Shown: positions 222-9,291 of the stretch, piece by piece
Numbering within the stretch: position 1 is the first letter of the stretch
Layout: every line of letters starts with the position of its first letter
NCBI GenBank assembly: GCA_021789095.1
Contig: JAJYJX010000073.1
Location: forward strand, 1 to 11,385
Direction of reading: 5' to 3'
DNA length: 11,385 bases
DNA from: a bacterium
GTDB taxonomy: Bacteria; JAMCPX01
Notes under the pieces: generated by a model
What the model saw: the letters and a program-made list of their open reading frames with translations, nothing else
Told to the model about the DNA's origin: nothing
Database searches by the model: none
Position numbers and translations under genes: made by a program

Positions 222-1592
222 ATGCAATTGGTTACGGACAAATCGCCGAAACTTACGATACCGTTCAGGTACCTGTTCACGGGTATAGCGGTGCTTGTTG
301 CCATATCCATTATTATCATATTCAAGGCACATGCATTGACAGGGTTCTTTTTCCGATCCGCAGTTTTCCTGCCGTTAACGCACCTGCTTACACTCGGCTG
401 GATAACATTGACGATTATAGGCGCGATGTTCCAGTTGATCCCCGTTGTGACTGAAAAGGTATTGTTCAGCGAGTCTATTGCAAAGGCTGTTTATTACCTG
501 TATCTTGCAGGGCTTGCATGGCTTATTTATGCATTTGCTTCAAATACGCAGGCAGATGCAGGCGCGGGCATTATCAGCATTGCCATTCTTTTGTTCCTTG
601 TTGATATTGCAGTGACAATAAACCCCGTTAGAGGACAACGCCATCCGGCGGCCGGAGGCGGCCTTCAATCACCGTTAGCTTCAAATGGCGATAGTCATGG
701 AATAGAACCGCCGGCTGTCTCTAACGGGGTAAAGGACATACAAAAGCCCGACCTCGCAGTGAGCTATGTCATTGCTGCTGTACTATTTCTTTTCCTTACA
801 ATTATCATAGGCTCTATCGCGGCAGCAGGGCTCCATCAACATATGGTGGATAACCCGGTTACATTCTTATTCCTGCATATAGCCGTTGCAGGCATAGGAT
901 GGGTCTGCTTTGTTGTCATAGGATTTTCCTTCAGGCTTATACCCATGTTTATCCTGTCCCATGGTTATGATGAGACATACGGCTGGACATCTTTTGCCAT
1001 GCTTTTGTCCGGTTTAATCCTGCTTGTCCTGTATTTTACATTGCAATTGTTCATACCAGGACTGAACGACATTGACTGGATCGGTCTTGCAGGGGGCATT
1101 ATTATACTTATCGGTATAATCAGCTATATATTCCAGATGCACGTGATCTATAAGCAGAGGACGCGCAGGCAGATCGAACCTGCTCTATGGTTTTCAATCT
1201 GTGCAACAGCTTACCTTCTTGTTGCAGGTTTAATCGGGGTATGGATGCTTGCTTTTCAGCATTCATTCAGGCTGGAGATTGTTTATGTCATTGCGGGACT
1301 GTTCGGTTTTGCAGGCATGTATATTATAGGGATGATGCACAAGATCGTGCCGTTCCTTCACTGGTATAACAAATACAGCTCCAAAATCGGGCTTGAAAAG
1401 GTGCCCATGACAAAGGACATGATAAACACGCCCTTCACATGGATTCAATTGTTTGTTTTTAATGCGGGTATAATAATAATAACAGCAGGGATCATGGCGA
1501 ATATGACAGGTATAATAGTTGTTTCCGGCATAGTGTTTTTAACAGGTTCACTTCTATTTTTATGGAATATAGCAAACGTGTTGAGAAAATAA
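222..1592 (+). CDS. Multi-helix membrane protein, cytochrome c oxidase subunit I-like
   Basis: A 456-residue integral membrane protein with roughly a dozen hydrophobic helices. It has the signature of short heme-copper-oxidase subunit I relatives (often labelled cbb3-type subunit I or NnrS-like): a helix H54-LLTLGW ending in IGAMFQLIP, repeated in the second half as H219-IAVAGIGW ending in IGFSFRLIP, then MMHKIVPFLHW with H373 and H380. These histidines are candidate heme or metal ligands; no substrate can be assigned. The frame is closed by a stop at 213-215, so ATG 222 is the first possible start, and it has no Shine-Dalgarno sequence. Residues 134-171, in a loop between helices, are encoded by a palindromic repeat element inserted in frame. 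It heads a probable operon with the DUF59 and DUF2249 genes, whose families are often found near nitrogen-oxide and anaerobic respiration genes. That suggests, but does not show, a redox or NO-related role. Confidence 0.8.
   Translation: MQLVTDKSPKLTIPFRYLFTGIAVLVAISIIIIFKAHALTGFFFRSAVFLPLTHLLTLGWITLTIIGAMFQLIPVVTEKVLFSESIAKAVYYLYLAGLAWLIYAFASNTQADAGAGIISIAILLFLVDIAVTINPVRGQRHPAAGGGLQSPLASNGDSHGIEPPAVSNGVKDIQKPDLAVSYVIAAVLFLFLTIIIGSIAAAGLHQHMVDNPVTFLFLHIAVAGIGWVCFVVIGFSFRLIPMFILSHGYDETYGWTSFAMLLSGLILLVLYFTLQLFIPGLNDIDWIGLAGGIIILIGIISYIFQMHVIYKQRTRRQIEPALWFSICATAYLLVAGLIGVWMLAFQHSFRLEIVYVIAGLFGFAGMYIIGMMHKIVPFLHWYNKYSSKIGLEKVPMTKDMINTPFTWIQLFVFNAGIIIITAGIMANMTGIIVVSGIVFLTGSLLFLWNIANVLRK
621..734 (+). 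repeat. In-frame palindromic element, copy 1 (NPVR...SNGVK)
   Basis: The element is bounded by ACCCCGTTAGAGG (622-634) and TCTCTAACGGGGT (718-730), inverted repeats matching at 12 of 13 positions. It lies inside the membrane-protein gene and contributes 38 codons beginning NPVR and ending SNGVK without breaking the frame. The core is proline- and glycine-rich, hydrophilic and unlike the flanking membrane helices. A second copy with the same ends in the same frame lies at 2327-2413. This resembles Rickettsia palindromic elements in principle, but the sequence family is different. Confidence 0.85.
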
Positions 1593-1751: not shown

Positions 1752-2051
1752 ATGGTAACACAGCAGGATGTATTAAAGGCGCTTGAGTCTGTTATAGACC
1801 CTGAACTCGGACTGAACATTGTTAAGATGGGCCTGGTGTATGATGTGAAAGTGGTCAATGACGAGGTTTATGTAAAGATGACGCTGTCTGCAAGAGCATG
1901 CCCTTTACACGGAAGCATACTGAGCGGCGCAGAGAACGTGATCAAAAGGCTTAACGATGTACAGGCCGTTAGGGTTGAGCTTGTTTGGGATCCGCCCTGG
2001 ACGCCTGACAGGATATCACCTGAAACCAGAAGGCGCATGGGATTCAGATGA
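1752..2051 (+). CDS. MIP18/DUF59-family iron-sulfur assembly factor
   Basis: A 99-residue single-domain protein of the MIP18 (DUF59, PaaD/SufT-like) family. It shows the family hallmarks: D16-P17-E18 followed by LGLNIVKMGLVYDV, the conserved Cys50 in ARACPLHG, and a C-terminal WDPPWTPDRIS segment. Relatives help deliver or mature iron-sulfur clusters in cytoplasmic proteins, and Cys50 is the expected reactive residue. The client protein here is unknown. A strong ribosome binding site (AAGGAGG, 1741-1747) precedes the ATG. Its stop overlaps the next start as ATGA, so the two are translationally coupled and probably work together. Family confidence is high; the specific role is inferred. Confidence 0.92.
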   Translation: MVTQQDVLKALESVIDPELGLNIVKMGLVYDVKVVNDEVYVKMTLSARACPLHGSILSGAENVIKRLNDVQAVRVELVWDPPWTPDRISPETRRRMGFR

Positions 2052-2932
2052 AGATTACACCGCAGACAAAGATAGTCGATGCAATCAAAGCCCATCCTGA
2101 GCTGATCGATGTGCTTGCATCATACAACAGCCACTTTGAGTTATTAAAGAATCCTATAATGAGGAAGACCTTTGCAAGGCTTGCAACAGTCAAACACGCT
2201 GCAAAGGTTGCAGGCGTCAATCTTACAGAGCTTATAAAGCTGCTCAATAGTGCTATCGGAGAAACAGTATCAGATGCAGATATGGTTGAGAGGGAAGACA
2301 GTAAGCCCGCATCAGATATGCCTGTAAACCCCGTTAGAGAAACTCGTTCTCTGACGGGTGGCTTTAAACCACTGTCAGTTTTGGATCCGGTGGGTTTCTC
2401 TAACGGGGTAAAGGCTGTTATAGAACAAAAACATGTAAAAACAGTAAACCTGGATGTAAGAGACATCATGAAAAAGGGCGGAGAGCCTTTTCATGTTATC
2501 ATGCAGACAGCTGCAAAGATAAAACAGGGTGAAGCGCTTGTGCTTGAGACCATATTTGAGCCCGCCCCGCTGTACGATGTACTTAAAAGAAGGGGATTTG
2601 AACACCAGACCGAGGTACTCGCCGAGGAGCATGTCAGGATATGGTTTTACAGGGTGACAAAGAAAGAGGATAAGCAAGGGAAAACGGATATTAGGGAGAG
2701 GATCAGGGAGGAAGGGGATACCGTATATCTTGATGTCGAAGGACTCGAACCGCCGCAGCCGATGGCATTAATCCTTGAAACAATGGCAAAGCTCGATCCG
2801 TCAAAAACGCTTGTGGTACATCATGAGCGCGTGCCTGTGTTTCTTTATCCAAAGCTCGAGGAGCGCGGGTATAAATACGAAACGCACGAGTTCGATTCAC
2901 GGAATGTAAAGCTTATTATAAAAAAACAGTAG
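2048..2932 (+). CDS. DUF1858 and tandem DUF2249 domain protein
   Basis: A 294-residue soluble protein with three recognisable parts. Residues 1-70 (ITPQTKIVDAIKAHPELIDVL) fit DUF1858. Residues 132-203 (VNLDVRDI...RIWFYR) and 226-293 (VYLDVEGLEPPQPMALIL...NVKLIIKK) are two copies of DUF2249, a small alpha-beta fold related to the SirA/TusA group. The usual cysteines of sulfur carriers are absent, so sulfur transfer cannot be claimed. DUF2249 proteins often lie beside NnrS, hemerythrin or hcp-type genes, hinting at a role in nitrogen-oxide or redox metabolism. The linker between DUF1858 and the first DUF2249 contains a 29-residue insertion (94-122) encoded by a palindromic repeat. The start ATG overlaps the DUF59 stop; there is only a weak, distant AGAAGG upstream, consistent with coupled translation. 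Confidence 0.85.
   Translation: MKITPQTKIVDAIKAHPELIDVLASYNSHFELLKNPIMRKTFARLATVKHAAKVAGVNLTELIKLLNSAIGETVSDADMVEREDSKPASDMPVNPVRETRSLTGGFKPLSVLDPVGFSNGVKAVIEQKHVKTVNLDVRDIMKKGGEPFHVIMQTAAKIKQGEALVLETIFEPAPLYDVLKRRGFEHQTEVLAEEHVRIWFYRVTKKEDKQGKTDIRERIREEGDTVYLDVEGLEPPQPMALILETMAKLDPSKTLVVHHERVPVFLYPKLEERGYKYETHEFDSRNVKLIIKKQ
2327..2413 (+). repeat. In-frame palindromic element, copy 2 (NPVR...SNGVK)
   Basis: Perfect 16-bp inverted repeats, ACCCCGTTAGAGAAAC (2328-2343) and its complement (2394-2409), bound an element inside the DUF1858/DUF2249 gene. It adds 29 codons (residues 94-122) starting NPVRE and ending GFSNGVK, in the same reading frame as the copy at 621-734. The left arm can also pair locally with TTCTCTGACGGG (2348-2359), with one mismatch, so a nested hairpin is possible. 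It falls exactly in the interdomain linker, where extra residues would be tolerated. Confidence 0.9.
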
Positions 2933-5858: not shown

Positions 5859-7010
5859 TCAATACACAAACACCACATCCTGTGCAGGTTCCGAAAGCTT
5901 GAATGTGGTGATTACGGTATTCGTAGTTGGATTGATCTCAAAGACCATATTATCAGACCAGTCCGTTGCCCAGAGCATGCCATCAGGTGCAAATTTAATA
6001 CTCGTAAGATTATAGCCGCTCAACCCTTTTACCTGTTTTGTGAGATCGGTCGTTGAAACAAAGGTGCCGGCATTGGTGTCGATCTCATCGTATCCGACAA
6101 TGCTGTTTGATGCCACATATCCCATACCTGTGGAGCTCAGTGCAATGCCTGAACCTCCTCCGCTTAACGGTATAGATGTCCGTTCCGTAAAATTGTCATT
6201 AAACAGCTCTGCATAGCCGCCGATTGTACTGTAGTCACCATTTGATATCACAACAAAACCTGTTTGTGTAAGCGGTTCTACAGCCTGAAGATTAATACCT
6301 GTTGTTGTAGTGATCATACCTGATACAGCATCTGTGGATGGGTCTATAACAGAAAGCATGCCTGGTGAAGCATAATATGCATATGGAGGAGTACTTATAA
6401 AATAGGCACCGTTAGTTGCAACCATAATCTTTCCATCAACAACTGCAATGCCCCATGGGTGTGTCTGGAACTCCGGGTTCCAAGTGCTGTATGAAGGTAC
6501 CGATATTCCTCCTAATATCGTATTACTATTCATATTCAAAACCTCGACCTGGTTTATCTGGTTCAACGAAACATAGCCTTCTTCCTTCCCGTTAACCGTT
6601 GTTACAGTGAGGTACTCCGGGACACTGCCGTATGGCAGTTGAACATAACCGTTATTGGTCATGTATATATTCGAGGTGCTTTCAGTAATAGAGATCACAG
6701 ATATCGTTGAATCACCTGCATTCACGACATAAAGGTTATTGCCATCAAGCAGCATGCTGTTTGGTATTAAGCCTACATTCAAACCTAATTTTTCTACTGT
6801 TCCTGTTGTGGGTGATAATGCATAGAGTGAACCAGGAACACTGCCGCCGGGCTGTGATAGTGCAATTACATAAGGGGCCTTTTCAAGCACTGCTGTGCCT
6901 GTTTTTGCCTTGCCGCATCCTGCAAATACTATAAGCAGTATTATGAATGCCAATCCTGATACCCATCGAAATTTTGAATCTTGAATCCCTAACCTCAAAT
7001 CTTTTCCCAT
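5859..7010 (-). CDS. Beta-propeller outer-membrane lipoprotein, BtuG-like
   Basis: A 383-residue lipoprotein. A basic N-terminus and hydrophobic stretch (17-30) end in the lipobox F-A-G-C32, followed by Gly rather than Asp, which favours outer-membrane placement. The mature part (about 351 residues) is made of YncE/YVTN-like repeats such as NLYVVNAGDSTISVISI, GMLSVIDPSTDAVSG and LWATDWSDNMVFEINP, enough for one beta-propeller. A strong ribosome binding site (GGGAGG, complement of 7015-7020) supports ATG 7010. In Bacteroidetes, a propeller lipoprotein, BtuG, sits on BtuB and captures B12 with very high affinity. The place of this gene between btuB and btuF under a cobalamin riboswitch suggests the same job. 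I cannot show homology to BtuG from this sequence alone, as many lipoproteins use this fold. Its stop lies 10 bases before btuF. Confidence 0.8.
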   Translation of the reverse strand: MGKDLRLGIQDSKFRWVSGLAFIILLIVFAGCGKAKTGTAVLEKAPYVIALSQPGGSVPGSLYALSPTTGTVEKLGLNVGLIPNSMLLDGNNLYVVNAGDSTISVISITESTSNIYMTNNGYVQLPYGSVPEYLTVTTVNGKEEGYVSLNQINQVEVLNMNSNTILGGISVPSYSTWNPEFQTHPWGIAVVDGKIMVATNGAYFISTPPYAYYASPGMLSVIDPSTDAVSGMITTTTGINLQAVEPLTQTGFVVISNGDYSTIGGYAELFNDNFTERTSIPLSGGGSGIALSSTGMGYVASNSIVGYDEIDTNAGTFVSTTDLTKQVKGLSGYNLTSIKFAPDGMLWATDWSDNMVFEINPTTNTVITTFKLSEPAQDVVFVY

Positions 7011-7045
7011 TTTTCCTCCCTTTATTTTAATACCTTCTTTATTTT

Positions 7046-7108
7046 GTCATTCCGCACTTGATGCGGAATCCAGATTTTTTTCTGGATTCCCTCTTTCGAG
7101 GGAATGAC
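7046..7108. repeat. Palindromic repeat with GTCATTCC ends between btuB and the propeller gene
   Basis: Outer inverted repeats GTCATTCC (7046-7053) and GGAATGAC (7101-7108) enclose a central 9-bp stem (GGAATCCAG at 7065-7073 with CTGGATTCC at 7082-7090). Two side hairpins can also form, one of them (minus strand) TTCCCTC-GAAA-GAGGGAA with a stable GNRA loop. This dispersed type is common in Desulfobacterota and relatives. It occupies most of the 145-base gap in the operon, so the mRNA will carry it. It may stabilise the btuB message or reduce read-through. Confidence 0.85.
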
Positions 7109-7155
7109 GCTGAGATAATACTTCATCAAGCCACATGAAATTTTTACGCAATCTT

Positions 7156-9069
7156 TCACAAATGCACCTCCACTCCCGCCCACACATACCTGCCCGGCAA
7201 TGGATAACCAGAAATGTACTGATAGCTTGTCAGTGGATTGAATGTATTAGAAAAATACTGGGTAAGGGTTATAAATGGTCTTAGCCATTTTATTTCATAG
7301 CTGAACGTTGCATTGATATTGTAAAACCCGGGCAGAGATTGGCTGTTTGTCGGTATAATGTACCTTTCGCCTGTATAGCCAATGCCTAAAGATACATACC
7401 TGTTATCCTCTCCTATTTTTACAGATGTGTTTGCGACAATATCGGGTCTGTATATCAGTGCTTCACCATAAGAACCCGATGGATTATCTGAAAGATTAAG
7501 CGTGCTGAGCATGCCCATATTGCCTGATATTGTAAGCGGATGTACTGGAACTGTATTTACTGAAAGCTCTATGCCTTTAATTACCGCACCTGATACGTTT
7601 TGCGGTATCCATATATTGTTTGCGGATGGAGACCACTGAATCAGATTTTTATACCTGTCATAGAACCCGTTTATTTCAACAGTTGTGTTTGTTAATGGAG
7701 ACAGAAGCAGGCCAAGCTCATAGCCTGTTTTTGTTTCGGGCTTCAAATAAGGATTGCCCCGCGCACCTGCTGCATCCGGCCAATAAAGATCATCAAGTGA
7801 AGGTGCCCTGAAGGCAGTGGACAAGCGCGTCTTAAGTGTCATCCATGAAACTGGCTTTACAGCAGCCCCAATACTATAGGTGGATACGTTGCCTGTGTCT
7901 GAAATGGACTGGTACGCGGCATCACCGACTATGGCAACCCATGTAAGCGGCGTTAAACGGTCTTCAATGCCCATGCTTCCCGTAACCCTTGTATGACTGC
8001 CAATGCTTGTCGATACGGCCTGCTGTGAAAGTGCATCAATAGCAAGGCTCGGCGTGTTATAAGGCACACTGTTGAAAAAAATCACTGTGGATGCTTCATT
8101 GTTTGTATCATCAAATCTGGAAGGATTTGAAATAGGTACATATATATTATCGAAGTACAAACTCTTTTCATTAACATGGCTTAATGATGTTTTAACGGAA
8201 AGCGTTTTGGACATATGCCGGTATTGCATAATATAAATGCCGTGACTGTCATGCTCCCTTGCCTGCGGTGAAGGCATGCCAAGCGCACCGGGTACGCCCT
8301 TATCGCTGGTGTATAGGTGTGTTATAAAATAAGCTGAATTGTTATCATCGCTGAAACCCATACCTGCGAGTATCCAGGCACCTTTGTAATCGTCATTTTG
8401 CCTGATCCTTATGTTTCCGTTATTGTCCGTATAAGGATAATTGCCCTTTGACGCCTCGTACCCGGGCGAAATAAGGAACCCGAACCTGCCAGTATTTGCC
8501 TTTGCACTTGCATCAATATGATAGCTTTCGAAACTGCCGGTCATGGCTTTTATATGAACGGCGTCTTTTTCAGGGAATACGTCCGGCATAATGTTGACAA
8601 CCCCTCCCATAGCGGATTCTCCATACAGAGCCGATGCCCCGCCCCTTGCAATCTCAATGGAAGATATGCCTGACAACGGTATTGTCGACAGGTCAATGCC
8701 TGACAGCTCGGCATTGTTGAGCCTTATACCATCGAGCATGACCCCTGACTGGGATGTGTTTGCACCGCGTATGGAAATGCCGGAAAGCGCGCCCATCCAT
8801 CCATAAGAAGGTATTGCCGTATCTGTTGAGCGGGACAGTGCATCAGTCAGTGTCGGACTATTTTCAATGGTCGAAGATGTTATAACAGAAATGGATGATG
8901 GGGTAAGCTCATAGGTTGACGGCACCCTTTCACCTGTAACAACGATCTCATTCATACTGAGCGATGCGCCAAAAGATGCACTTACTGAGTATGTAGTCCC
9001 TAACAAGAGAAAGGCGCACAAAAAAAGCCCTCCTCTCTTAAGGACGGGCTTGTAAAAATACCTTTGCAC
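7156..9069 (-). CDS. btuB: TonB-dependent cobalamin receptor BtuB
   Basis: A 637-residue outer-membrane receptor, close to E. coli BtuB in size. It begins with a signal peptide (basic YKPVLKRGG, then LFLCAFLLLG), followed by a TonB box-like EIVVTGERV (41-49) and a plug domain to about residue 161 (ISIRGANTSQSGVMLDGIRLN, then IEIARGGASALYGESAMGGVVNI). The rest is a beta-barrel with alternating strands and the typical FRAPSLDDLYWP motif. It ends in Leu after an aromatic-rich strand rather than the usual Phe. The start is GTG at 9069, with GAGG 5 bases upstream. A TTG with a GGAGG-like site about 16 codons later is a weaker alternative because it would remove the basic part of the signal peptide. 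The cobalamin riboswitch just upstream is the main reason for naming B12 as substrate. Confidence 0.9.
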   Translation of the reverse strand: MQRYFYKPVLKRGGLFLCAFLLLGTTYSVSASFGASLSMNEIVVTGERVPSTYELTPSSISVITSSTIENSPTLTDALSRSTDTAIPSYGWMGALSGISIRGANTSQSGVMLDGIRLNNAELSGIDLSTIPLSGISSIEIARGGASALYGESAMGGVVNIMPDVFPEKDAVHIKAMTGSFESYHIDASAKANTGRFGFLISPGYEASKGNYPYTDNNGNIRIRQNDDYKGAWILAGMGFSDDNNSAYFITHLYTSDKGVPGALGMPSPQAREHDSHGIYIMQYRHMSKTLSVKTSLSHVNEKSLYFDNIYVPISNPSRFDDTNNEASTVIFFNSVPYNTPSLAIDALSQQAVSTSIGSHTRVTGSMGIEDRLTPLTWVAIVGDAAYQSISDTGNVSTYSIGAAVKPVSWMTLKTRLSTAFRAPSLDDLYWPDAAGARGNPYLKPETKTGYELGLLLSPLTNTTVEINGFYDRYKNLIQWSPSANNIWIPQNVSGAVIKGIELSVNTVPVHPLTISGNMGMLSTLNLSDNPSGSYGEALIYRPDIVANTSVKIGEDNRYVSLGIGYTGERYIIPTNSQSLPGFYNINATFSYEIKWLRPFITLTQYFSNTFNPLTSYQYISGYPLPGRYVWAGVEVHL

Positions 9070-9098: not shown

Positions 9099-9111
9099 TC
9101 TAAAAAATTCT

Positions 9112-9254
9112 TTTCAGCAGGTTTCCTGGCTCGGGGTCATTGCCTGCTCATGTCTTCCCATTCCGCGTTTCGCGGGACAGTGACGCTGTGAGCTGCTCGC
9201 CCTTACAGTGGCGGGGCCGCTCCGGGTTTTCACCGGATTCCCTGACACTAAAAA
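9112..9254 (-). promoter_or_regulatory. Cobalamin (B12) riboswitch
   Basis: The minus-strand RNA carries the conserved boxes in order: GGGAATCCGGTGAAAACC, then CCCGCCACTGTAAG, then GGGAAGACATGAGCAGG, and finally the B12 box GAGCCAGGAAACCTGCTG. Spacing is typical of adenosylcobalamin-class aptamers. It lies directly ahead of btuB and so controls the whole import operon. Binding of cobalamin is expected to switch expression off. No strong terminator follows, so control is more likely at translation, through the hairpin at 9075-9098. Confidence 0.97.
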
Positions 9255-9262
9255 GTGACTAT

Positions 9263-9291
9263 GGTTTATTGTGATCCATTTATTTTGTCAA
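9263..9291 (-). promoter_or_regulatory. Possible promoter of the B12 import operon
   Basis: A consensus -35 box TTGACA (complement of 9286-9291) is followed after 17 bases by TAAACC (complement of 9263-9268), a weak -10. The start point would fall near 9256, just upstream of the riboswitch. Confidence 0.4.

Follow-up and report, generated by a model that had tools for sequence, protein, structure and literature searches.

A short palindromic repeat, probably a MITE-like mobile element, with in-frame copies in protein-coding genes and prepilin leaders

The palindromic elements known as RPEs and WPEs are about 100 to 150 bp long, have inverted ends and occur both between genes and in frame within unrelated genes (PMC2229807, PMC10969869). 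In R. conorii, nearly half of the RPEs are located in genes (PMC10969869); WPE-like in-frame inserts are found in HR genes (PMC4224334), and the target duplication of RPEs is listed as unknown (PMC2229807). In-frame fusions are also generally known for MITEs (PMC2229807, PMC10969869), including an example from YPAL in a signal-peptide region (PMC2229807), so that the class of event is already known. So far, insertions of this in-frame palindromic kind have mostly been regarded as peculiar to Rickettsia and Wolbachia, fewer examples being known from other MITEs.

We analyzed a window of 11,385 nucleotides from a bacterial contig, in which an earlier note had described a palindrome with inverted ends in a membrane-protein gene. 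This was borne out. Element 1 (107 bp, positions 623 to 729) has the inverted ends CCCCGTTAGAG / CTCTAACGGGG and reads in frame as PVRGQ...SNG inside gene 1 (222 to 1592, plus strand), which codes, as judged by its ORF, hydropathy and orthologues, for a multi-spanning membrane protein of 456 residues, with no match in Pfam or NCBIfam. The following small gene (1752 to 2051, plus strand), DUF59/SUF-associated-like by a match to NCBIfam TIGR02945 under the curated cut-off, contains no element. The next, gene 2 (2048 to 2932, plus strand), encodes a DUF1858 + DUF2249 protein of 294 residues (Pfam matches: DUF1858 at 3 to 63, best DUF2249 stretch at 228 to 292), whose linker is interrupted by element 2 (80 bp, 2329 to 2408), with perfect 15-bp inverted ends CCCCGTTAGAGAAAC and the in-frame reading PVRETRSLTGGFKPLSVLDPVGFSNG. 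Counted from the outside, 11 of 11 arm bases pair in element 1 and 15 of 15 in element 2. Based on the sequence and on the family-wide flank statistic given below, both elements are bounded by target-site duplications of TAAA, identical on the two sides (619 to 622 and 730 to 733 for element 1, 2325 to 2328 and 2409 to 2412 for element 2). The word CCCCGTTAGAG was present at all in just 8 of 2,000 shuffled windows.

Element 1 plus one TAAA amounts to 111 nt, i.e., 37 codons (gene 1 residues 134 to 170), and element 2 plus one TAAA to 84 nt, i.e., 28 codons (gene 2 residues 94 to 121); the reading frame is thus kept in both genes. The elements share one phase, xPVR...SNGV followed by K, in agreement with the claim that the same ends recur in the same frame in the next-but-one gene, where element 2 reads NPVR...SNGV-K. 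The reading NPVR...SNGVK given for element 1 stands, but its length of 38 codons counts K171, which lies outside the insert of 37. Hydropathy is in line with its assignment to a loop between membrane helices: TM-like windows lie at residues 109 to 139 and 173 to 207 and the insert has a mean of -0.68.

The word CCCCGTTAGA occurs 117 times (60 + 57) in the 2.15-Mb host genome, versus 2 (1 + 1) for its reversed control, so the case that the genome might hold no further copies, raised in the earlier note, is false. The longer end ACCCCGTTAGAR, with one mismatch allowed, gave 109 occurrences versus 6 for the control. Both palindromes are real copies of one dispersed element. Reading 1.38 of the 2.15 Mb, in stretches, yielded 62 strict copies with terminal inverted repeats (TIRs) of 12 to 13 bp; element 1 falls just below the strict arm cut-off and is additional to these. 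The family has inverted ends of the form CCCCGTTAGA(A/G) between 4-bp direct repeats, with the conserved end CCCCGTTAGAAA/G over 12 to 13 bp (also given as CCCCGTTA, paired with TNNA duplications), and arm bases 12 and 13 covary between the two ends. Most copies are 77 to 110 bp long and a few are 32 to 40 bp. Identical direct 4-bp flanks were found for 29 of the 62 host copies versus 13.4 by shuffling (maximum 23), and for 77 of 132 copies from other genomes versus 11.2 (maximum 21). The target that is duplicated reads TNNA, most commonly TAAA or TTTA, and such a fixed 4-bp duplication is a sign of transposition-like insertion with a 4-bp stagger.

The interiors are far more variable than the ends. 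A total of 181 interiors fell into 154 clusters, the largest of which is a subfamily of 11 copies in the host genome, and most others have no detectable similarity; the ends are nearly identical and the length range narrow despite this. Such diversity would be unusual for an ordinary MITE family derived from one parent, with the proviso that weak homology may be missed, and we know of no mechanism for renewing element interiors. Folding of the interiors gave a median z of -0.3 with a structured minority; a long stem-loop spanning most of the element was not found, pairing being limited to the arms (11 to 15 bp). A sister type of end, CCCCGTTACACC / CCCCGTTACATCT, whose arms match and whose flanks are mostly TAAA/TTTA, is also present in the host genome (L055:10969-11047, L076:18267-18355, L081:15970-16081, L081:17395-17500 and L147:4055-4147).

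Other repeats and a regulatory RNA are present in the window. A second, unrelated inverted repeat, GTCATTGCGAG...CTCGCAATGAC, lies between gene 1 and the DUF59 gene (1610 to 1722), and GTCATTGCGAG was found 14 times in the 1.38 Mb. Upstream of gene 1, a perfect 30-bp palindrome, TTAACCCGAAAAATGCATTTTTCGGGTTAA, occupies positions 141 to 170; it is another dispersed repeat, since AACCCGAAAAATGC also occurs 14 times in the same 1.38 Mb. A cobalamin riboswitch (Rfam RF00174, 98 bits) was detected at 9099 to 9267 on the minus strand, with a TonB-type receptor and an ABC importer set downstream of it on that strand.

Comparison with orthologues supported the earlier claim of two independent in-frame captures. 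In gene 2, six orthologues of the same family have an exact empty site and the insert is confined to the host genome; the sequence ...GVP-VRDIVEQ of the orthologue in relative G001 matches the pre-insertion MPVKAVIEQ. In gene 1, an aligned stretch of 37 codons is present in G001, G004 and one contig of G005, with decayed ends and neither stop nor indel, and the insert is absent from G006, G007 and more distant orthologues. Orthologues with the loop and no palindrome, which the earlier note had set against its own reading, do therefore exist for gene 1, but as decayed remnants of equal length next to loop-free relatives. These comparisons point to an insertion in gene 1 older than that in gene 2. 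The pooled pN/pS of gene 1 is 0.62 in the insert versus 0.23 in both flanks; the frame is kept, and constraint on the peptide is weak. Counting against the mobile-element explanation favored below, the gene 1 insert is patchy within one genus (present in G001 and G004, absent from G006 and G007), which calls for loss, transfer or wrong grouping.

Additional coding copies were identified in the host genome. UvrA (contig C192) has 34 extra residues, 245 to 278, between its UvrA interaction and DNA-binding domains; they are absent from G001, G003, G004 and G006, and G002 and G005 have a decayed in-frame version. An NrfD/multihaem-cytochrome protein (C25) carries an insert between domains, and a Cache-PAS sensor protein (C50) a version of 12 residues within the Cache region. 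Five prepilin-like genes, three on C13 (L037, about 6250 to 7960) and two on C139 (L081, about 15970 to 17500), have the element in their leader, which reads ...GF(T/I/A)P(L/I)...TG|FTL(I/V/L)E or a close variant. Prepilin leaders are a hot spot in this genome, struck unusually often: in the stretches read, the element is present in 5 of 8 genes with a prepilin motif versus five other genes of about 1,245 (Fisher p about 6e-10, the five being treated as separate events). By eye, the interiors of prepilin genes on the same contig are alike, which suggests that the five insertions were not all separate events and that local hopping or gene conversion took place between adjacent genes.

Prepilin leader peptides are cleaved off during pilus assembly. 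When the element enters at the TTTA of GGN-TTT-ACN, the G-F-T cleavage motif is duplicated, and as the cleavage site is kept at the downstream copy, the foreign residues should go with the leader; their removal by prepilin peptidase is expected from known prepilin processing. Long leaders of the same design were found in G001, G004, G005, G007 and G008, as well as in one deltaproteobacterial and one planctomycete contig (L304, L312).

The family is mainly intergenic. Of the 62 strict copies, only 8 are placed well within an ORF of at least 90 codons, and some of those ORFs are not real genes; the genic share is thus about one copy in eight, despite an estimated coding density of about 90%. Copies at L060, L071 and L147 that appeared to break genes are intergenic, since joining their flanks gave fused neighboring genes (e.g., a membrane protein into a purS-like gene), and L081:5741, with an open minus-strand frame that looks like antisense, was left uncounted. 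Every confirmed genic copy, namely those in both window genes, the UvrA, NrfD-cytochrome and sensor kinase genes and the five prepilin leaders, is in frame. This uniformity would be expected of a protein-coding palindromic element proper, whose ends and interior evolved for translation and whose persistence is helped by coding insertion. The same reading could draw on the 33 of 62 host copies whose length plus 4 is divisible by 3, and on frame-compatible copies that are open in at least one read-through phase more often than with shuffled interiors (25 of 30 versus 16.4, and 32 of 45 versus 24.5). This excess is modest, however, and we did not take it as design for coding because the copies are related, those of one subfamily being non-independent, and some are genic. 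The ends are open in two of three target phases (xPVR...SNGV or TPLE...LTG), and the third meets TAG/TAA. Together with the low genic share and the identical ends of intergenic copies and of copies in other phyla, this makes an element evolved for translation rather unlikely, and the earlier note's idea of ends shaped for reading as protein is not supported, given the same intergenic majority, foreign copies and closed phase.

Loops and linkers often differ in length, as the loop of gene 1 does in relatives G002 and G005, and a chance palindrome in ordinary loop variation of two genes might be invoked; the 117 versus 2 end copies, the 4-bp direct repeats and the exact empty sites in gene 2 and UvrA refute it, and we regard it as virtually excluded. 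Repeats of the REP/REPIN type, mobilized by a Y1 (RAYT) transposase, would likewise be short, palindromic and intergenic in dozens of copies, and Y1_Tnp genes are present in 8 of 10 genomes tested, the host among them. Yet the Y1 genes fetched lack matching flanking ends, each end of the element is a single inverted arm with no hairpin of its own, and Y1 enzymes would not be expected to duplicate 4 bp of the target, so that this origin appears very unlikely. Integron attC sites, considered from the GTTAG ends, were rejected on account of the wrong end order and of isolated copies that form no array. A further proposal concerns the mechanism of a MITE-like element: a 280-bp copy (L108:297-576, contig C172 of the host; ends CCCCGTTAGAGAT / ATCTCTAACGGGG) contains an intact ORF of 86 aa of the GIY-YIG type and might be the autonomous form, from which shorter copies arose by deletion. 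Contig C20 of G001 has end matches at 54885 and 55164, also 280 bp, with the same GIY-YIG start adjoining the end, and the 109-bp copy G001:C62:4004-4112 resembles an internal deletion of the 280-bp copy. The pattern from TIR to GIY-YIG matched just these two full-length cases in 386 genomes, which makes it a lead and not a result; two viral matches to it were attributed to chance. Moreover, of the GIY-YIG genes at other fetched loci two have no ends and one a single end, the diversity of interiors suggests that the ORF may be captured cargo, and GIY-YIG enzymes are not known to us as TIR transposases. We therefore hold this proposal to be unlikely as it stands.

The explanation that we strongly favor, and consider highly probable, is that the two palindromes represent copies of a single dispersed mobile element, MITE-like in kind, some of whose copies have survived in frame. 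In line with a MITE, we found many dispersed TIR copies, a fixed 4-bp duplication and orthologous empty sites (six for gene 2, four for UvrA), and from these dispersed copies, direct repeats and exact empty sites we infer mobility. Counting against it, about half of the host copies lack identical target-site duplications, and some flanks are inverted instead of direct (TTCA/TGAA). The element consists of TIRs of the CCCCGTTAGAAA type (12 to 13 bp) around a short, highly variable interior, about 80 to 110 bp in total, and insertion duplicates a 4-bp TNNA target. An enzyme of the cut-and-paste type that recognizes the ends would move it in trans. The genic copies seen are those in which length plus target duplication is a multiple of three, the interior is free of stops and the site is in one of the two read-through phases, and they are located in linkers, loops or prepilin leaders. 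In prepilins, the G/F cleavage site comes after the added residues, which prepilin peptidase should cut off; with time, the ends decay while the frame stays. The added peptide appears to be tolerated rather than needed. Also counting against this explanation, a search of the fetched loci for long TIR pairs with ORFs and matching target duplications gave no transposase ORF between such ends; apparent pairs of this kind were separate short elements around ordinary genes.

The host lineage has no relatives between family and domain level among the genomes compared (whole-genome kinship). A scan of one genome per species for the end pair with 68 to 98 bp between the ends revealed it, among the matches listed, in at least about a dozen phylum-level groups. 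These included several Patescibacteria lineages, deltaproteobacteria (Syntrophaceae, Desulfobacterales), Nitrospirae, Nitrospinota, Planctomycetota, Omnitrophota, Elusimicrobia, Cloacimonadota, Stahlbacteria and Clostridia. No short elements were found in IMG/VR viral sequences, and no plasmid matched one consensus sequence of the element. A broader picture is possible, and we put it forward tentatively: a palindrome that crosses phyla of mostly uncultivated bacteria, has prepilin leaders as its favored coding niche, where 30 to 40 foreign residues are removed, and may owe its spread to a GIY-YIG nuclease element of very small size.

The earlier note supposed that the family may be undescribed. 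A literature search on the end sequence returned unrelated papers only, and no description of the family, its spread or the prepilin hot spot was found in open-licence papers, which is consistent with that supposition. In this family, an outcome similar to that in Rickettsia and Wolbachia is reached in candidate phyla, and the target duplication maps each event. Matched filled, decayed and empty genes (UvrA, the DUF2249 protein and the membrane protein) allow one to ask what an added peptide does, and prepilin leaders are a place where a foreign peptide may be removed after translation. Among metagenome proteins, some linker inserts that lack annotation and some long prepilin leaders could also be due to this family.

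Like RPEs and WPEs, the present family is found in frame in unrelated protein genes, so the functional likeness to Rickettsia palindromic elements drawn in the earlier note stands, as does the apparently unrelated sequence, without the ends shaped for coding. To our knowledge, the end sequence matches no RPE or WPE. The family differs from RPEs and WPEs in its 4-bp TNNA duplication, spread over many phyla, hypervariable interiors and prepilin-leader hot spot, as well as in its hosts, which are not Rickettsiales but Patescibacteria, deltaproteobacteria, Planctomycetota and others; genic copies make up only about one in eight, versus nearly half in R. conorii. We did not file the element as an RPE because it does not form one long stem-loop and is not hosted by a rickettsia. 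MITEs with open frames, such as ERIC, the 107-bp Correia element and YPAL, are also short TIR elements with target duplications, mainly intergenic and occasionally fused in frame; the present family is distinguished from them by other TIRs, the TNNA duplication of 4 bp, mostly dissimilar interiors and cross-phylum spread, and no parent IS was found at the fetched loci. It resembles REP/REPIN repeats with their RAYTs in being small, palindromic and intergenic, with dozens of copies, but it has a direct 4-bp duplication and Y1 transposase genes are without these ends. Insertion into a leader, hidden by protein processing, would be comparable in effect to an intein or an intron.
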